A stretch of DNA of 42,840 nt from a virus, in the IMG/VR virus record IMGVR_UViG_3300032083_000404, positions 1 through 42,840 of that record; one strand, 5' to 3'. Under the pieces are notes generated by a model. The model made no database searches and had not been told where the DNA came from. It was given only the letters and a program-made list of their open reading frames with translations. Positions 2 to 42,182 of this stretch are shown piece by piece; position 1 is the stretch's first letter; every line of letters starts with the position of its first letter. The translations under genes were made by a program, and so were the position numbers.

Positions 2-1078
2 CTGTTTGCGTTACTCAGTCAGACGCAACAACTTCATTCGTCTGTTGATATAGGCTCTATCTCAGAAGTTAGAGGTAATGCACAAGTTCTAAGAGATAAA
101 CCTTATGGTGCTGAACTTGAGTTCAACATCCAGCAAATGGATGATGTACGCACAGAAGCTGGCAGAGTTGCCATAACCTTTGAAGACGACTCTACAGTCA
201 AACTTACTGAACATTCCAAGCTGGTTATAGATGAATACATCTACGACCCAGACCCTTCTAAATCTAAAATGGCTTTGAAGTTTGCTAGTGGTACAGCACG
301 ATTTATTACAGGTAAATTCAATAACAAAAGCAATATATCTATTAAGACTCCTACTGCTGACATTGCTATACGTGGTACAGATTTTACTTGTACAGTAGAT
401 GAGCTTGGAAGGTCACTTGTAATTCTGTTGCCAGATGAAAATGGCATATCTAGTGGTGAAATTATTGTGGCCACTGCTATGGGTAGTGTCACGCTTAACA
501 AACCCTATCAAGCTACCACAGTATCTGTTTACGAAAACAACCCAACAAAACCAGTTACCTTAGACATATCACTTGATTTGATTGATAACATGTTGATTGT
601 TAATCCACCGCAAGTAGTAGACCAACAACTAGAAGAAACTCAGACACAAGCTACCGCTGACTACCTTGACTTTAATGACTTGGATATTGATTTTCTTAAC
701 GAAGACTTCTTAGATGCAGAAGCAGAACTAGAATTCACTGAGCTAGACATCAACTACTTAGATGTAAACTTTTTAGAAGACTTGCTTAACGTACTAGATG
801 CACTAGCTATATCTAAAGAAGAAGATGCACTTAAACAAGGAGGTGTGGGAATTCGTATTGTAGGTACAGATATAGGACAAGATAAGGACACGCAGATAAC
901 AACCATAGTCTCTGGTCAAAATATTAGCCTTACCAGAACAGTTAGCCAAAGTGCTAAACTAAACCTAGATGGTTCTAATAGCTATACAATAATACTAATA
1001 CAAGATGGCGTAGCCAATACAGTAAAAATAAATGGTGGTTCTTCAACAACAATAACAATCAAACAAGGTTCTGGATGA
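2..1078 (+). CDS. FecR-domain protein, 5'-truncated by window edge
   Basis: The frame is open from the window edge, so the real start lies to the left; the ATG at 137 falls inside the domain and is not the start. The first visible residues (LFALLS) could be the end of a signal peptide. A FecR-like beta domain runs from about nt 50 to 430: a G-x-I-x-x-V-x-G-x-A opening, a D-V-R-T-x-x-G-R segment, and the hallmark TPTADIAIRGTDF near nt 347-385. An Asp/Leu-rich segment with a repeated D-x-x-x-L-D/N-F pattern follows (nt 658-810), then a beta-rich tail. The stop overlaps the cyclase start as ATGA, implying translational coupling. In bacteria FecR-domain proteins act in the envelope and sit beside CHASE2 signalling genes; partnering with the cyclase is inferred. 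No membrane segment is visible in the rest of the protein. Confidence 0.85.
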   Translation: MFALLSQTQQLHSSVDIGSISEVRGNAQVLRDKPYGAELEFNIQQMDDVRTEAGRVAITFEDDSTVKLTEHSKLVIDEYIYDPDPSKSKMALKFASGTARFITGKFNNKSNISIKTPTADIAIRGTDFTCTVDELGRSLVILLPDENGISSGEIIVATAMGSVTLNKPYQATTVSVYENNPTKPVTLDISLDLIDNMLIVNPPQVVDQQLEETQTQATADYLDFNDLDIDFLNEDFLDAEAELEFTELDINYLDVNFLEDLLNVLDALAISKEEDALKQGGVGIRIVGTDIGQDKDTQITTIVSGQNISLTRTVSQSAKLNLDGSNSYTIILIQDGVANTVKINGGSSTTITIKQGSG

Positions 1079-2838
1079 AAAAACTTATACTACTATCACT
1101 CATATTTATATTGGTCTTGCCATTTATCTATCAAACCACACCACTCGAAGTGTTAAAACTCAGAACTTTTGATGCTTTGATACCAGAACAGCCAGAAAGT
1201 GGTAATTTTGTAATACTCAACATCACTGAAAATGATATTGCAAATGAAGGGGGTTACCCGTTATCAAGGCAAACATTAGCGCAAATACAAATTAATCTTT
1301 TGCGTAAAGGTGCTATAGGTGTAGGTTGGGTTATGGCTTTTCCTCAACCAGATAGATTTGGTGGTGACTTTGAGTTTATGGAAGCTTTGTCATTTTCTCC
1401 TAGTGTCCTCGCAATGTTTGAAGGTAAAGGTAATTACCCACCTACATCTGGTACAGTTATTTTAGGTGAAGATGCTGGCGGTATGATGGCAGAAGGCGTT
1501 ATAGAAAACATAGATGTTTTAAAAGAAAACAGTGCACAAGGCATAGCAGTCGCTAGAACAGACGTTGACAATTTAATTAGAAGATTGCCATTGCTTATGA
1601 AAACACCAGATGGTTGGGTGTCTTCATATGCCACAGAAGTTTTGAAAGTTTTGGCTGGAGCTGAAACATATGTAATAAAAACTAACGACAACGGTATAGA
1701 ACAAATCAGAGTAAGAGGCATACCACCTGTGTCAGTAGATTCGCTAGGTCGTAAGTGGATAAGTTGGGTAGATACACCACAAACAGACTTGGCAACTATG
1801 GACGTAGAAAACAAGTTTGTATTTGTAGGTTTTACAGCCAAAGGCATTATGCCACAGCTGGCAACTCCTGTAGGCTTATTAGAGCCACATAAAATACAAG
1901 CAGCTCTAGCTGAGTCAATTCTTATAGAAAATAGTCCTTACGTACCAGATTATGCTCTGGCTGTAGAAGTAATGATTTTATTGTCTTCAATGGTCCTTAT
2001 ATGGCTTGTGTTGAACGCTTTTGGTATAACTCTTGGTATTAGTATAGGAGCTGTTGTAATGACCGCTACGGCTTACTATGGCTATTGGACCATACAACAA
2101 GGCGTTTTAGTTGATGTTACTTGGGCCTTAATCTCACAGTTTATTACTGGTTCTACAGCTTTTTACTTGCGTTTTAGAGAACAATACAAGGCCAGACAGC
2201 TCATAAAACAGCAGTTTGGTAAATACTTAGACCCCAGAATGGTCAAAAAACTGCAATTAAATCCAGAACTGTGCCAAATTAATGGTGCTAGGGTCGATTG
2301 CTCGATAATTTTCACCGATCTAAGGGGTTTTACGAGCCTTTCTGAGTCAGTAGAGCCAGAAATGGTCACCTACATAATGAACTCTGTACTAGATGCACAG
2401 GTTAAGGCAGTGAACCAGTATATGGGCGTTACGGATAAATTCATCGGCGATGCGGGCATGTACCATTGGAACACAATCATACCGCAAGAAGATCATCATA
2501 ATCTCGCATTAGATGCAGCCATACAAATGGAAGAGAACATGCGCGAGCTTAACAAAAAATTTGTTGAAGAAGGCATACCAGAGGTTGCAGTGGGCGTGGG
2601 AGTAAACAGCGGAATTTGTGTTGCTGGAAATTTTGGAGCTACCGATAGGTTTGCGTTCAGTTTAATTGGTGACCCTTGCAACGTAGCAGCTCGCCTAGAA
2701 TCAGGAACTAAGGAGGCTGGTGTAAGCACATTGATTGGGCACGAAACAGCACAAAATTGTAGATATGTGTTAAAGTCACTACCAGATTTAAAAGTAAAAG
2801 GTAAAGCAAAAGCGCTAAAAGTATATACATGGGCATGA
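1075..2838 (+). CDS. CHASE2-domain membrane class III adenylate cyclase
   Basis: Predicted to make cAMP from ATP at the inner face of the membrane in response to an extracytoplasmic signal. An N-terminal membrane segment (residues 1-20) is followed by a CHASE2 sensor domain (about 25-290, beginning L-K-L-R-T-F-D-A), three more membrane segments (about 294-365), a short linker (LIKQQFGKYLDP) and a C-terminal cyclase domain (about 400-587). All catalytic positions are present: metal-binding D415 (FTDLRGFT) and D459 (DKFIGDAGM), adenine-specifying K455 and D533, and transition-state N536 and R540 (GDPCNVAARLE). It should therefore be active and ATP-specific. It overlaps FecR upstream and the i-spanin downstream by ATGA junctions, placing it in a phage lysis operon, which is very unusual. 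Base composition resembles its neighbours by eye. Confidence 0.93.
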   Translation: MKKLILLSLIFILVLPFIYQTTPLEVLKLRTFDALIPEQPESGNFVILNITENDIANEGGYPLSRQTLAQIQINLLRKGAIGVGWVMAFPQPDRFGGDFEFMEALSFSPSVLAMFEGKGNYPPTSGTVILGEDAGGMMAEGVIENIDVLKENSAQGIAVARTDVDNLIRRLPLLMKTPDGWVSSYATEVLKVLAGAETYVIKTNDNGIEQIRVRGIPPVSVDSLGRKWISWVDTPQTDLATMDVENKFVFVGFTAKGIMPQLATPVGLLEPHKIQAALAESILIENSPYVPDYALAVEVMILLSSMVLIWLVLNAFGITLGISIGAVVMTATAYYGYWTIQQGVLVDVTWALISQFITGSTAFYLRFREQYKARQLIKQQFGKYLDPRMVKKLQLNPELCQINGARVDCSIIFTDLRGFTSLSESVEPEMVTYIMNSVLDAQVKAVNQYMGVTDKFIGDAGMYHWNTIIPQEDHHNLALDAAIQMEENMRELNKKFVEEGIPEVAVGVGVNSGICVAGNFGATDRFAFSLIGDPCNVAARLESGTKEAGVSTLIGHETAQNCRYVLKSLPDLKVKGKAKALKVYTWA

Positions 2839-3233
2839 AGTTAAGTTTAATACTCGGAGGCTTGTTAGTCGTTTCTGTTGCTGGTTCTGCATGGTATATA
2901 GATTATCAAGCAGATCAAATTAGCACGTTAAAAGGCAATCAAGTAGTTTTAGAAACTGAAATAGAAAAACAAAACGAATCAATACAAAACTATTTAGCAG
3001 AACAAAAGAACCAACAAGCACAACTAAATCAGTTAGAAAATGATAAAAGAGCAGCTATGGAAGATGTCAATAGACTTAGAAAAACATTTGCTAATCACGA
3101 CTTAGATGAGTTGGCACTTGCTAAACCGGGTATGTTGCAAAGTCGTGTGAACAAAGCCTCAAACAGAGTGATGACTACCTTAGAGAATTTAAGCAATCCA
3201 AATCAATTTGATGAAAAACCTAGCACTAATTAG
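2835..3233 (+). CDS. Inner-membrane spanin (Rz-like i-spanin)
   Basis: A 132-residue protein with one N-terminal membrane segment (about residues 2-22), then a long Gln/Glu/Lys-rich coiled coil (about 28-85) and a C-terminal tail (N-H-D-L-D-E-L-A ... K-P-G-M-L-Q) of the type seen in phage i-spanins. The start is taken at 2835 because its ATG overlaps the cyclase stop as ATGA; an in-frame ATG at 2829 would add two residues. The lipoprotein gene starts inside its 3' end, the classic Rz/Rz1 overlap. Spanin pairs bridge and fuse the inner and outer membranes in the last step of lysis of Gram-negative hosts, so the pair also indicates a diderm host. Identification rests on architecture and context, since spanin sequences diverge quickly. 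Confidence 0.82.
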   Translation: MKLSLILGGLLVVSVAGSAWYIDYQADQISTLKGNQVVLETEIEKQNESIQNYLAEQKNQQAQLNQLENDKRAAMEDVNRLRKTFANHDLDELALAKPGMLQSRVNKASNRVMTTLENLSNPNQFDEKPSTN

Positions 3234-3576
3234 TTTAAGTATTTTCTTGGCCAGCTGCTCTTTGATGCAACCAATCAAACCTGTGGAAGTGAGAAGCATT
3301 GCAGAGAGAGCACCGTTGTATCACCCACCGTTACCTTACCCTATGTCTCTTACCAAAGTAGATTGGGAGATAATTACACCAGAACTTATGCAAGAGTATT
3401 TAGATTTGGTTGAAAAAGGTGAAGCACCTAGAAAAGCTTATTACGCATTATCTAGTAAAGAATACGAAAATCTTAGCATGGATATGGCAGAAATAACTCG
3501 TTATACCAAAGACATACTTTCTATAATCAAATACTATAGAGAATTAGACAAACCACAGGAAAAAGAAGATGAGTAA
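3211..3576 (+). CDS. Outer-membrane lipoprotein spanin (Rz1-like o-spanin)
   Basis: A 121-residue predicted lipoprotein. The signal peptide MKNLALISLSIFLASC ends in a canonical lipobox (L-A-S-C) with lipidated Cys16. A proline-rich stretch (YHPPLPYPM) follows, then a helical domain with Y-Y-x-L-S-x-K-E-Y and R-Y-T-K-D motifs that I associate with marine-phage proteins of this type. The ATG at 3211 lies 23 nt inside the i-spanin gene in another frame; an upstream TTG at 3208 is less likely. At 121 residues it is longer than lambda Rz1, so the C-terminal helical part may have an additional role. Its 3' end overlaps the nuclease gene by 8 nt. Confidence 0.82.
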   Translation: MKNLALISLSIFLASCSLMQPIKPVEVRSIAERAPLYHPPLPYPMSLTKVDWEIITPELMQEYLDLVEKGEAPRKAYYALSSKEYENLSMDMAEITRYTKDILSIIKYYRELDKPQEKEDE

Positions 3577-3964
3577 GACACCAGATGAATTTGTATATAG
3601 AGCTACGCTAGATCGCATAGTTGATGGTGACACTTTTGATTGCATCTTAGACCTTGGTTTTGACGTAAAACTACACAAACAAAGAGTCCGGTTGGCTGGA
3701 ATAGATACACCAGAGAGCCGTACTAGAAATTTAGAAGAAAAAGCATTAGGTCTAAAAGCGAAAGAAAGACTTAAAGAGCTTTGCGAAGGCACATTTAGAA
3801 TTAAATCTCTTGGGAAGGGAAAATATGGAAGGATTCTTGGCATACCTTATACAGCTGATGGAGAAGATATTTGCCAAAAGCTTATTAAAGAAAAACACGC
3901 AGTTGAATACTGGGGTGGAACCAAAACAGGCAAAGTTTTGGAAGATGGAACTTGGGGAGAATAA
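3569..3964 (+). CDS. Staphylococcal nuclease-like (SNase/TNase) endonuclease
   Basis: A 131-residue single-domain nuclease of the thermonuclease fold (PF00565). Residues matching the known active site are visible: D21 (VDGDTF), R41, D46 and E49 (RVRLAGIDTPE), and R88 (GKYGRILG). This is the spacing of the staphylococcal enzyme, which cleaves DNA and RNA using Ca2+. No signal peptide is present, so it should act in the cytoplasm, perhaps degrading host nucleic acid or processing phage DNA. It lies between the o-spanin (8 nt overlap) and the lysozyme (1 nt gap), and is thus expressed with the lysis genes. Confidence 0.92.
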   Translation: MSKTPDEFVYRATLDRIVDGDTFDCILDLGFDVKLHKQRVRLAGIDTPESRTRNLEEKALGLKAKERLKELCEGTFRIKSLGKGKYGRILGIPYTADGEDICQKLIKEKHAVEYWGGTKTGKVLEDGTWGE

Positions 3965-3965
3965 A

Positions 3966-4409
3966 ATGCAAATATCACAAGAGGGTTTAGCGCTAATAAA
4001 AAAGTTTGAAGGTTGTGAGTTAGAAGCTTACAAGTGCCCAGCTGGCGTATGGACCATAGGCTATGGCCACACTAAAGACGTAAAAGAAGGCGACAAAATA
4101 AACAAAGACGAAGCCGATTATCTTTTACAAGAAGAAATGATTGAGTACGAAAGCTATATTAACGACATGGTTGATGTTGACCTAAATCAAAGCCAATATG
4201 ATTCTATGTGTGCGTGGGTTTACAACTTAGGGCCATCCAACTTAGGTAGTTCTACCATGCTTCGTGTTTTGAACGAAGGTAAGTATGATGAAGTACCACA
4301 ACAAATGAAAAGATGGAACAAGGCTAATGGTGAGGTGTTAGACGGTTTGATACGCAGACGAGAAGCAGAAGCTTTATTATTTCAAGGTAAAGAGTGGAGT
4401 GAGGTTTAG
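3966..4409 (+). CDS. Endolysin, T4/P22-type lysozyme (GH24)
   Basis: A 147-residue muramidase that cleaves the glycan strands of peptidoglycan at lysis. The catalytic core is E15 (KFEGCE), C24 and T30 (YKCPAGVWTIGYGHT). This is the E-8-C-5-T variant known from several phage endolysins, in place of the E-D-T of T4 lysozyme. C-terminal family motifs are also present (S-M-x-A-W-V-Y-N-L-G and L-I-R-R-R-E-A-E). There is no signal peptide or SAR segment, so it would normally need a holin, and no obvious holin lies next to it. The ATG at 3966 follows the nuclease stop directly; a longer in-frame extension to 3810 lies inside the nuclease gene and is rejected. Confidence 0.95.
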   Translation: MQISQEGLALIKKFEGCELEAYKCPAGVWTIGYGHTKDVKEGDKINKDEADYLLQEEMIEYESYINDMVDVDLNQSQYDSMCAWVYNLGPSNLGSSTMLRVLNEGKYDEVPQQMKRWNKANGEVLDGLIRRREAEALLFQGKEWSEV

Positions 4410-4427
4410 CATGTTACATAAATGCAC

Positions 4428-4433
4428 TATACT
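4428..4433 (+). promoter_or_regulatory. Possible weak -10 box ahead of the terminase gene
   Basis: TATACT resembles a sigma70 -10 hexamer in the 94-nt gap between lysozyme and terminase. No good -35 lies 16-18 nt upstream (the best is TTTAGC), so this is a weak candidate only. Confidence 0.2.
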
Positions 4434-4455
4434 GACTACAGACACTATGTGTTTA

Positions 4456-4496
4456 GGGTCAGGTGGCTACTATGTCACTACCTAGTTGCTTGACCC
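4456..4496 (+). other. Inverted repeat / RNA hairpin upstream of terL
   Basis: GGGTCA (4456-4461) pairs perfectly with TGACCC (4491-4496). Inside, GGTGG (4462-4466) can pair with CTACC (4478-4482) with one G-T wobble, leaving an 11-nt apical loop and an 8-nt bulge on the 3' side. The structure ends 7 nt before the terminase ATG, where no Shine-Dalgarno sequence is visible. It lacks a T-tract, so it is not a standard terminator. It could modulate terL translation or mark a processing or protein-binding site; the role is unknown. Confidence 0.5.
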
Positions 4497-4503
4497 GTTT
4501 CTT

Positions 4504-5985
4504 ATGAAAGAAGTATCTTTTAAAGACTTTGACATACTTTCAGAACAAGACAAATCAGAAGCTCTTGCTCTTTTACATCGCTACGATCAAATAGATAAGC
4601 AAGATAGCTGTCAAAAAGATTTTATAAGTTTTGTAAAACATTTGTGGCCTGAATTTATAGAAGGCAGACACCATAAGATTATAGGCGACAAGTTTAACAA
4701 AATAGCACAAGGTAAATTAAAACGATTGATTGTGTGTTTACCTCCCAGACACTCTAAATCAGAGTTTGCATCTACCTACTTTCCAGCATGGATGATGGGC
4801 AAAAGAGGTGATCTAAAGATTATACAAACCACTCACACCGCTGAATTAGCTGTACGATTTGGACGTAAGGTTAGAAACATAATAGACAGTGAGGAATACC
4901 AACACATATTTCCTGAGTTAAAGTTACAAGCAGATAACAAATCAGCTGGTCGATGGACCACAAACCAAGAAGGTGAGTCGTTCTATGCTGGTGTTGGTGG
5001 TGCGATTACAGGTCGTGGTGCTGATTTACTTATTATTGATGACCCACACTCAGAGCAAGACGCACTATCTCCTAAGTCGTTAGAGTCGGCCTATGAGTGG
5101 TACACGTCTGGTCCAAGACAAAGACTACAGCCGGGCGGCATCATTGTGATAGTTATGACAAGATGGAGCACCAAAGACTTAGTAGGAAAGGTGTTAAAGA
5201 AACAGGGTGATGACAACGCAGATCAATGGGAAGTTGTAGAGTTTCCAGCAATTATGCCTGAAACAGAAACACCTTTATGGCCAGAGTTTTGGAAAAAAGA
5301 TGAATTATTATCGGTTAAAGCCTCGCTGCCAGTATCAAAATGGAATTCACAGTGGATGCAGAATCCTACCTCTGAGGAAGGTTCTATAGTAAAAAGAGAA
5401 TGGTGGAGGGAATGGAAGCAAGAAGAAGTACCAGATTACGAGTATGTTATACAAAGTTACGATACCGCTTTCTCTAAAAAAGAAACAGCTGACTACTCAG
5501 CTATAACCACATGGGCAATATTCAAAGACCGTGATGAGGTCGATCACATAATACTACTGGACGCAAAAAGATTTAGAGTAGACTTTCCAGAGCTGAAAAG
5601 AATAGCTTTTGACGAGTACAAGTATTGGGAACCTGACTGTGTATTGATCGAAGCAAAGGCTTCTGGAACACCACTAACACAAGAGCTTAGACGTATGGGC
5701 ATACCTGTGACCGCATATTCACCGAGTAGAGGCCAAGATAAAGTAGCAAGAATGAACAGTGTCGCGCCTATATTTGAATCTGGTATGGTTTGGGCACCTG
5801 ATGAAGACTATGCAGACTTAGTAAGGGAAGAATTAGCATCTTTTCCATTTGGTGATAACGATGATTTCTGCGATAGTACAACAATGGCTTTGATGAGATT
5901 TAGACAAGGTGGTTTTTTATCTTTGAAAGAAGATTATCAAGATGAAGCAAAATTTTTATCTAAAAACAGAACAGTATATTATTGA
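4504..5985 (+). CDS. terL: Terminase large subunit (packaging ATPase/nuclease)
   Basis: A 493-residue packaging motor that pumps DNA into the prohead and cuts the concatemer. The N-terminal ATPase has a Walker A-like PPRHSKSE (residues 80-87) and Walker B LLIIDD (D179/D180). The C-terminal RNase H-like nuclease has D320 (QSYDTAFS), E383 (VLIEAKASG) and an acidic DNDDFCD near the end. Length is normal for the family. ATG 4504 is preferred; a TTG six codons upstream (4486) is possible, and neither has a clear ribosome-binding site. The small subunit is not adjacent but lies at 40345. A 59-aa gene overlaps its stop. Confidence 0.96.
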   Translation: MKEVSFKDFDILSEQDKSEALALLHRYDQIDKQDSCQKDFISFVKHLWPEFIEGRHHKIIGDKFNKIAQGKLKRLIVCLPPRHSKSEFASTYFPAWMMGKRGDLKIIQTTHTAELAVRFGRKVRNIIDSEEYQHIFPELKLQADNKSAGRWTTNQEGESFYAGVGGAITGRGADLLIIDDPHSEQDALSPKSLESAYEWYTSGPRQRLQPGGIIVIVMTRWSTKDLVGKVLKKQGDDNADQWEVVEFPAIMPETETPLWPEFWKKDELLSVKASLPVSKWNSQWMQNPTSEEGSIVKREWWREWKQEEVPDYEYVIQSYDTAFSKKETADYSAITTWAIFKDRDEVDHIILLDAKRFRVDFPELKRIAFDEYKYWEPDCVLIEAKASGTPLTQELRRMGIPVTAYSPSRGQDKVARMNSVAPIFESGMVWAPDEDYADLVREELASFPFGDNDDFCDSTTMALMRFRQGGFLSLKEDYQDEAKFLSKNRTVYY

Positions 5986-38338: not shown

Positions 38339-38586
38339 TGAGTAAAGACAAACAAAAAGAGTTTTTTGCAAAGTGTGAAGATGAGTGGAACGGTATGCCA
38401 GAATTTGTACAAGAAGATTTAAGGCCTTGGCATCAGGTTAATGTCCGATTTAGAAACCAAGAAGACTTTGATAAATTTAAAGTATTGATGGAGCAAGAAA
38501 TTACGCCAAAACAAAAAACCTTATGGTTTCCACACGCACCCTTTCGTAGAGCTGCTAAATACAAATATATTGATGACGAATCCTAG
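38338..38586 (+). CDS. Small protein coupled to the glycosyltransferase
   Basis: An 82-residue protein whose ATG overlaps the primase stop (TAATG). It contains V-N-V-R-F-R-N-Q-E-D-F-D-K-F and T-P-K-Q-K-T-L-W-F-P. I recall this segment as the C-terminal part of larger ParB-like proteins in phages with glycosyltransferase or DNA-modification clusters; here it stands alone. It overlaps the glycosyltransferase by 14 nt, which suggests linked function. Its role is unknown. Confidence 0.75.
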   Translation: MSKDKQKEFFAKCEDEWNGMPEFVQEDLRPWHQVNVRFRNQEDFDKFKVLMEQEITPKQKTLWFPHAPFRRAAKYKYIDDES

Positions 38587-39439
38587 TTACCCCATATATA
38601 TAGTTTCCAAAGGACGATGGGAAACAAGACACACAAGCAAGGCTTTAGAGTTGATGTCTGTTCCTTACTATATTGTTGTTGAAGAACAGGAATACGATAA
38701 TTATGCTTCTGTTATAGATTCAAAAAAAGTGTTGGTGTTACCCAACCATTATCTAAATGAATATGACACTTGCGATGATCTTGGTGACAGTAAGGGTAAG
38801 GGACCGGGAGCTGCTAGAAACTTTTGTTGGGACCATTCTATAAATTTAGGAGCTATAAGACATTGGGTAATGGATGACAACATTGCTTCTTTTAATAGAT
38901 TGAATCGTAATTTGATGTGTAAAGTTACCAGTGGCACTATATTAAAAGCAGCCGAAGACTTTGTGGACCGATACGAAAATGTCTATCTGGCTGGCTTAAA
39001 CTACGATTTTTTTGCGAAAGCCAAAGAACCTCTGCCACCTTTTGTAAGAAACACGCGCATTTATTCAATACTGTTAATACAAAACAATATACCTTACCGT
39101 TGGAGGGGTAGATACAACGAAGACACGGACCTGTCATTGAGGGTTTTGAAAGATGGCCATTGCACGGTTCAGTTCAATGCTTTTCTGCAAGAGAAGAACA
39201 CAACACAGAAGGTGAAGGGTGGCAACACCGAAGAGTTCTACGCCAAAGAAGGCACTTTGCCTAAGTCAGAAATGATACAGGCATTGCACCCTGATGTGGC
39301 GAAAGTTGTGTGGCGTTTCAATAGATGGCATCACTACGTGAACTACAGGCCTTTTAAAAATAACCGATTTATAAAAAAAGAAGGATTAGATATTCCTGTA
39401 GGGCACAATAATTATGGCATGAGGTTGGTGGAAGCATGA
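38573..39439 (+). CDS. Glycosyltransferase of TET-associated (TAGT-like) type
   Basis: A 288-residue GT-A-like protein (ATG 38573). It opens Y-P-I-Y-I-V-S-K-G-R-W-E and has P-G-A-A-R-N-F-C-W-D-H-S, the metal/sugar-nucleotide-binding W-V-M-D-D-N (D101, D102), R-N-T-R-I-Y-S, and R-G-R-Y-N-E-D-T-D-L-S (N182-D186, candidate catalytic acids). This matches the TET-associated glycosyltransferase family (TAGT, PF20691), described computationally as acting on hydroxylated bases in phage DNA. The window has no recognisable TET/JBP or cytosine methyltransferase, but three 2OG oxygenases. The DNA-glycosylation role is therefore plausible, not shown. Confidence 0.82.
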   Translation: MTNPSYPIYIVSKGRWETRHTSKALELMSVPYYIVVEEQEYDNYASVIDSKKVLVLPNHYLNEYDTCDDLGDSKGKGPGAARNFCWDHSINLGAIRHWVMDDNIASFNRLNRNLMCKVTSGTILKAAEDFVDRYENVYLAGLNYDFFAKAKEPLPPFVRNTRIYSILLIQNNIPYRWRGRYNEDTDLSLRVLKDGHCTVQFNAFLQEKNTTQKVKGGNTEEFYAKEGTLPKSEMIQALHPDVAKVVWRFNRWHHYVNYRPFKNNRFIKKEGLDIPVGHNNYGMRLVEA

Positions 39440-41221: not shown

Positions 41222-41650
41222 ATGCCGATTAATTCGCGAACCAAGGGGGCAAGTTACGAAAGAAAGGTCGTAGGAATCCTAAACGAATTTTTTTTGCAAA
41301 ATAATTTTGATGTAACCTGTAAGCGCAACCTAGATCAGTACCAAACCGCTGGGCAGTCCGACATCAACATCCCGTTTCACTCTGTCGAGTGCAAGCACTA
41401 CAAAGAGGGCAACTGGCTCAAGCCAGAATGGTGGAGGCAAGTGTGCGAATCGGCAGACAACGAAGGTACCATACCCGTCCTGATTTTTAAGTTTAATCGC
41501 GTTCCCACAAGAGTGGCCATACCCTTACACGCAGTAAATCCCGAATGGGAGGTAGACAACCAAAAAATGGCCATCATGTCTATGGACGACTGGTTAGATA
41601 TTCTGTTGAAGAATTGGTCGATTTACGAGGAGCAAGATGCAACCATCTAA
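41222..41650 (+). CDS. Hjc-like PD-(D/E)XK endonuclease (Holliday junction resolvase candidate)
   Basis: A 142-residue nuclease. The catalytic set is E13 (SYERKVV), D47 (GQSDINI) and E56-C-K58 (SVECKHY), with N-terminal N-S-R-T-K-G-A-S-Y-E-R as in archaeal Hjc-type resolvases. These cut four-way DNA junctions, which in phages resolves branched concatemers before packaging. Its position beside terS agrees. The C-terminal half is a conserved W-L-K-P-E-W-W-R-Q-V-C ... P-L-H-A-V-N-P segment. It overlaps the oxygenase gene by 14 nt. Confidence 0.82.
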   Translation: MPINSRTKGASYERKVVGILNEFFLQNNFDVTCKRNLDQYQTAGQSDINIPFHSVECKHYKEGNWLKPEWWRQVCESADNEGTIPVLIFKFNRVPTRVAIPLHAVNPEWEVDNQKMAIMSMDDWLDILLKNWSIYEEQDATI

Positions 41651-42182
41651 GCATGGAGTCACGGGCATGGCTCTATCCACCGAAGAGGTAAAGGCTTTCA
41701 AAGACTACTTGGTAGATGCGGTTCCTTCTAAGGCCAAAGTAAACAAGAAAGGTAAGGAGCAAGAAGATACCAACATCAGAGACGCTGACGTTTACTTTGT
41801 CGAACATGAGGCCAAGGAACTATACGAAATCTTCCAGAAGATCGCACAAATGGTTAATCTCTATTTTAAGTATGAGCTGACAGGGATTGAGAAGGCGCAG
41901 ATCATGCACTACAAAGCGCCATCTAATGGCTACGAATATCATATCGACATAGACGCAAATGACAGCGAATCATCTCGGAAGGTCAGCGTATCGATTTTAT
42001 TGAATGAGGATTACAAGGGTGGCGAGATGTGTTTCAGAACTGGCGAGGAACCCAGCTGCACCAAACCCAAGACTGGGAATGTGGTGGCTTTCAGTAGCTT
42101 TATACCGCACAAGATTAATCCGATCACCTCTGGTGAGCGCTATGCAGTCGTTGTTTGGTTTACGGGTCCTTGCTTTAGGTAG
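41637..42182 (+). CDS. 2OG-Fe(II) oxygenase C (prolyl 4-hydroxylase-like)
   Basis: A 181-residue P4H-type dioxygenase. Iron ligands are H102-x-D104 (Y-E-Y-H-I-D-I-D) and H158 (S-F-I-P-H-K-I-N-P), with R168 binding 2-oxoglutarate (S-G-E-R-Y-A-V-V-V-W-F). L-N-E-D-Y-K-G-G-E-M-C-F is the family strand. ATG 41637 overlaps the resolvase gene; an alternative ATG at 41667 would shorten the N-terminus by ten residues. It shows no close resemblance to the other two oxygenases beyond the core fold. The substrate is unknown. Confidence 0.88.
   Translation: MQPSKHGVTGMALSTEEVKAFKDYLVDAVPSKAKVNKKGKEQEDTNIRDADVYFVEHEAKELYEIFQKIAQMVNLYFKYELTGIEKAQIMHYKAPSNGYEYHIDIDANDSESSRKVSVSILLNEDYKGGEMCFRTGEEPSCTKPKTGNVVAFSSFIPHKINPITSGERYAVVVWFTGPCFR

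Follow-up and report, generated by a model that had tools for sequence, protein, structure and literature searches.

A predicted adenylate cyclase at the probable end of a curli module in an HTVC023P-type podovirus genome

We have analysed a viral record, linear and 42,840 bases long (the window), whose 5′ end falls inside a FecR gene. The FecR gene and the CHASE2 adenylate cyclase gene that follows it are very probably the 3′ end of a pelagiphage curli (T8SS) module that has been clipped by the contig edge and is joined to the lysis and packaging cassette of an HTVC023P-type podovirus, because relatives of the window and cultured phages have curli genes before the FecR-cyclase pair. By sequence, the window is an HTVC023P-type podovirus genome. 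Its terminase large subunit (TerL) is closest to those of 023Pt_psg01, HTVC027P and HTVC023P (61%, 58% and 57% identity, respectively), and for this reason its host, judged by TerL alone, is probably SAR11.

A sequence-only reading of this DNA had supposed that no described phage carries a FecR/CHASE2-cyclase pair. That was mistaken, since FecR and an adenylate cyclase have been published within the T8SS/curli module of HTVC023P-type podoviruses and pelagimyophages, in passages that also discuss its regulation (PMC9599517, mSystems 2022), and cyclases are annotated in HTVC008M and Melnitz; our literature search for phage-encoded cyclases returned nothing else relevant. The pair in the window is therefore very probably one more example of this published module and ordinary as a find, of low discovery value because the pairing has already been described. 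Two points are new here, a cyclase domain that is exchangeable and the apparent absence of a classical cAMP receptor from the inferred host, neither of which is described in the passages available from that paper.

Results

Gene layout and integrity of the junctions

The genes at the 5′ end of the window, with the two halves of the cyclase, are as follows.

2..1078, + strand, FecR-domain protein, truncated at the 5′ edge of the window (Pfam FecR 1.2e-13; phrog_37870 5e-65)
1075..2838, + strand, CHASE2 sensor, transmembrane helices and class III adenylate cyclase, 587 aa (Pfam CHASE2 7.5e-24, Guanylate_cyc 3.4e-16; phrog_35576 8e-109)
1075..1971, + strand, CHASE2 extracytoplasmic sensor half, residues 1-299 (Pfam CHASE2 at residues 13-299)
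2296..2835, + strand, class III cyclase catalytic domain, residues 408-580 (Pfam match)
2829..3233, + strand, Rz-like i-spanin, its translation coupled through the ATGA at 2835 (phrog_739 1.9e-13)
3208..3576, + strand, o-spanin lipoprotein, overlapping the i-spanin (phrog_812 2.9e-16)
3569..3964, + strand, SNase-like nuclease (Pfam SNase 4.5e-12)
3810..4409, + strand, phage lysozyme (endolysin), lysozyme domain from ~4000 (Pfam Phage_lysozyme 1.5e-48)
4486..5985, + strand, terminase large subunit, HTVC023P type (phrog_38 1e-107)

The FecR and cyclase frames share an ATGA at 1075-1078, and the cyclase and i-spanin frames share another at 2835-2838, given an i-spanin start at the second Met (the first ATG is at 2829). 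These overlaps, together with the Pfam and phrog matches, bear out the sequence-only description of a membrane sensor cyclase joined to FecR upstream and to a spanin downstream, and coupled to lysis genes in a phage.

That reading had also asked whether the junction might be a misassembly. One contig (L001) matches window positions 256-5170 (4.9 kb) at 95% identity and unbroken, and four others (L002, L003, L005 and L008) are collinear with the window across the same junctions at 81-84% identity. An assembly chimera is ruled out, because the FecR-cyclase-spanin-terL order is found again in many independent contigs. A search of IMG/VR yielded 122 candidate stretches, from which 80 loci were retained. 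Elsewhere in the window, positions 38570-39439 and 41637-42182 encode a TET-associated glycosyltransferase (TAGT) of the kind that modifies bases and a 2OG-Fe(II) oxygenase, genes whose presence suggests hypermodified DNA, as reported for the HTVC023P phage type.

The FecR protein

The N-termini of the relatives' FecR proteins carry a hydrophobic signal-like stretch, and FecR is a probable secreted periplasmic protein encoded by the last gene of the curli block. A signal-peptide-like N-terminus, with FecR as the sole domain found, sets it apart from the canonical FecR anti-sigma regulator, a single-TM protein, and no FecI-type sigma factor gene lies beside FecR in the phage loci examined (HTVC008M, Melnitz and other relatives, including L004). 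The structure prediction for FecR is unusable (mean pLDDT 43.9), and this model and that of the cyclase sensor half are too poor in quality to judge a FecR-CHASE2 contact. A curlin-like repeat spotted by eye in the FecR C-terminus (QDGVAN...IKQ) was rejected, profile comparison giving it a probability of 1% and Pfam no support.

The cyclase and its active site

The cyclase has the layout of a CHASE2 receptor cyclase, in which an N-terminal transmembrane segment is followed by an extracytoplasmic CHASE2 domain, more transmembrane helices and a cytoplasmic cyclase domain. Helices are predicted at residues 2-19, 292-341 and 349-380 of a model whose sensor half is of low confidence and whose only reliable part is the catalytic domain, where pLDDT is mostly above 80. 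There the AlphaFold2 model matches CyaB (3r5g) and Cya2 (2w01) with target TM-scores of 0.82-0.85. All six catalytic residues, which the sequence-only reading had called intact, align with those of solved class III cyclases, the best match being CyaB (3r5g, E 7e-26), and the catalytic-domain model agrees. They comprise the two metal-binding Asp residues (D415 and D459), the adenine-specifying K455/D533 and the N536-R540 transition-state pair. The protein is thus apparently an adenylate cyclase, its activity predicted from the intact active site.

Among the relatives, D415, K455 and D459 are present in 83/83 sequences, R540 in 82/82 and N536 in 81/82, and position 533 is occupied by D, S or T. 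The one departure at the transition-state Asn is in the cyclase of Melnitz (L082), where it is replaced by Ser, and the Melnitz enzyme may therefore be altered or weak. Most bacterial relatives of the cyclase are only ~20-30% identical to it.

The cyclase very probably belongs to a viral curli module

The earlier reading had placed the cyclase in a lysis operon. It is instead very probably a member of the curli/T8SS module, since csgF-csgG-csgAB-FecR-(csgAB2)-cyclase, in this order, is found in all 36 viral loci whose sequence extends more than 3.6 kb upstream of the cyclase. Judging by these relatives, the curli genes of the window's own phage would sit upstream of its 5′ edge, outside the window; L003 and L004, whose cyclases are 88% identical to the window's, are among the relatives with a full csgF-csgG-csgA/B upstream of FecR. 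When loci were instead sought from CsgG, FecR was present in 51/51 and the cyclase in 46/51 of those with enough downstream sequence, although the CsgG-led and cyclase-led sets share some contigs and their counts are not fully independent. FecR is retained in the 5/51 curli loci that have no cyclase, so it is not just a regulator devoted to that enzyme. We considered whether another signalling output replaces the cyclase in these five modules and rejected this, the genes after FecR looking, from their lengths and initial residues, lysis-related or structural and not like signalling genes.

Two cultured phages, HTVC008M of Pelagibacter and Melnitz of Methylophilales, both have csgF-csgG-curlin-FecR-curlin-cyclase; the second curlin-repeat protein of HTVC008M (L081:8583-9905) also has a PA14 domain. 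A cellular origin for the nearest genome matches was rejected, since L084 (NZIO01000054.1), a contig of a Pelagibacter MAG, is of phage origin, with TerL and portal proteins 84% and 77% identical to those of the window. In L085-L086, too, curli-type and FecR genes precede the cyclase, as in phages. The MAGs into which L084, L085 and L086 were binned are those of Pelagibacter, Neomarinimicrobiota and Maricaulis, and in each contig phage-type curli/FecR genes adjoin the cyclase.

The cyclase could still be a lysis-timing gene that senses the envelope late in infection and helps to trigger or delay lysis, with the spanins on the same transcript, a view close to that of the earlier reading. Its ATGA coupling to the spanin fits such a role, as do the spanins and lysozyme found downstream of the cyclase in 49/63 and 48/63 loci, respectively, and a lysis-timing role has been proposed for the CsgGF pore of Melnitz (PMC9004378). 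The spanin neighbour is lineage-dependent, however. In HTVC008M and Melnitz no spanin is annotated next to the cyclase, and structural and other genes come after it. Curli/FecR, not the spanin, is the constant partner, and cyclase-domain distances correlate only weakly with those of the spanins (0.27-0.37). On balance we consider a lysis-timing function unlikely.

The usual cAMP circuit appears to be missing from the inferred host family

The host survey used Pfam profiles on 148 genomes from the family of the genome behind L084 (G001, titled Candidatus Pelagibacter). HTH_Crp_2 was above the cut-off in one of the 148, and cNMP_binding occurred in 11/148, against 57/76 above the cut-off across the class. 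No class I cyclase was found in the 148 genomes; class III cyclases were found in two, both with CsgG on the same contig, and one of these contigs is the phage contig L084. By these profiles the inferred host family is seemingly without the usual cAMP circuitry. Of three SAR11 cNMP_binding matches inspected, one is a true CRP and the other two are fusions, one to an acyltransferase and one to an ABC transporter. The acyltransferase fusion (L152:898-3264) is a SAR11 protein of ~870 aa with cNMP-binding and acyltransferase domains, and a frame of the same length occurs in several other SAR11 genomes; in a minority of hosts, such fusions may offer cyclic nucleotides a target other than CRP. Nor did the phages supply a receptor of this type: cNMP_binding was found in 0/26 cyclase-carrying phage records, a set that includes the complete HTVC008M and Melnitz genomes along with many fragments, in a search that receptors outside PF00027 would escape.

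These counts weigh on the canonical route, in which cAMP would activate a host CRP-type regulator and switch host or phage promoters, much as csgD of E. coli is driven by cAMP-CRP. The intact class III active site is compatible with this route, and cAMP control of csgD in gammaproteobacteria is cited in PMC9599517. Given the near absence of CRP-type receptors from the inferred host family, the fusions among the inspected SAR11 proteins and the null result in the phage records, we regard the canonical route as improbable. With CRP-type receptors so rarely encoded in the inferred host family, the earlier suggestion that a rise in host cAMP may redirect metabolism becomes doubtful, and the cyclase product probably acts on a non-canonical target and not on a host CRP regulon.

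The catalytic domain is exchanged among relatives

In ~40 loci the CHASE2 domain is 80-86% identical to that of the window and the cyclase domain only 41-52%. In L010 (2156-3928) the pattern is reversed, with 74% identity in CHASE2 and 100% in the cyclase domain; DNA identity to L010 rises sharply from ~0.65 to ~0.99 near window position 1750, a recombination breakpoint, and stays high onward through the lysis genes, and dS is 0.96 in CHASE2, 0.09 in the transmembrane segment and 0.22 in the cyclase domain. Three cyclase-domain types are found behind the main CHASE2 type. In L030 and L055, identity falls to 0.49-0.63 around 2200-2800 and the flanks match better; the catalytic segment has been replaced in these loci, sensor and catalytic halves recombining independently. 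Pairwise protein distances, which are non-independent data points, correlate at 0.95-0.98 among CsgF, CsgG, CsgAB and FecR, at 0.64-0.75 between these and CHASE2, and at only 0.16-0.22 between these and the cyclase domain. These comparisons indicate that relatives have exchanged the cyclase domain separately from the sensor and the curli block.

Selection probably maintains adenylate cyclase catalysis, because the catalytic residues are near-invariant despite domain exchange and the dN/dS of the cyclase domain is 0.02-0.08. Such strong purifying selection, and a catalytic set conserved even though the domain that carries it is replaced, argue against the cyclase gene being a passenger of the curli module with no selected catalytic function. 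The curli modules that do without a cyclase and the loss of the catalytic Asn in Melnitz speak for a passenger, which we nonetheless judge very unlikely. Interference of the product with nucleotide-based defence, raised by the sequence-only reading and here considered for defence of the host or of a rival phage, is extremely unlikely. Nothing specific favours it beyond the cyclic nucleotide that the enzyme would yield. Against it stand an active site of the adenylate type, with K455 and a D, S or T at position 533, and the constant genomic partnership with an envelope secretion module.

Discussion

The mechanism that we propose for the cyclase is as follows. FecR would be exported to the periplasm, where it would belong with the curli block. 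CHASE2 may read the state of the envelope or of curli export, possibly via FecR, both contact and signal being presumed here, and would control the cytoplasmic class III domain through the transmembrane helices. That domain would make cAMP from ATP, and the cAMP would probably act on some target other than classical CRP. More broadly, we suggest, tentatively and with well under even confidence, that these phages equip hosts having neither CRP nor a cyclase with half of a cAMP circuit, the half that senses and makes the messenger, and do so without a cNMP-binding protein of their own, the cAMP using an undescribed receptor or serving the phage curli otherwise, and that the catalytic domain has been repeatedly exchanged while the curli/FecR/sensor block was inherited separately.

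An active cyclase would give infected cells of one of the most abundant groups of ocean bacteria a second messenger apparently not otherwise made there. This raises the question of what cAMP does in SAR11 cells, in which CRP is almost never encoded and no class I or non-phage class III cyclase was found in the genomes sampled, and of what maintains a cyclase whose catalytic domain can be exchanged next to viral curli genes.

Comparison with known systems

The biofilm operon BiofilmReg (PMC5192318) also has a FecR-domain protein with a CHASE2 sensor; its output is a histidine kinase, not a cyclase, and as described it is without curli. FecR/CHASE2-cyclase pairs are known from bacteria, as the sequence-only reading had stated: CHASE2 cyclases adjoin FecR-domain proteins in Campylobacterota (PMC9239204), the Sinorhizobium cyaD1 region includes the FecR-domain gene SMc02177 (PMC5498481), and in Tistlia (L087) a bacterial FecR lies next to a CHASE2 cyclase. 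As in the phages, the cyclase of the published bacterial clusters is a CHASE2 receptor, and its FecR-domain neighbour is an envelope protein. No curli genes turned up next to the bacterial cyclase relatives in searches with csg profiles, and, as a further difference, Sinorhizobium has a CRP-type receptor, Clr.

Among phages, csgF and csgG were reported in 2020 (PMC7029224). The curli operons of HTVC008M and Melnitz are alike in gene order, with cyclases 30-31% identical to the window's; HTVC008M differs by its PA14 domain and Melnitz by its missing catalytic Asn. The nearest system is the T8SS module of HTVC023P-type phages, given in PMC9599517 as csgF-csgG-csgA/B-FecR-(csgA/B)-adenylate cyclase. 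There a histidine kinase is reported always to stand before csgF, whereas Pfam found none in L004, the single relative checked, where a kinase may escape detection because the kinase sequences are called short and/or diverged in that paper. In the window's lineage FecR passes straight into the cyclase at an ATGA, without an intervening second curlin gene. The full gene order is present in the window's close relatives L003 and L004, and the window very probably holds its clipped end.
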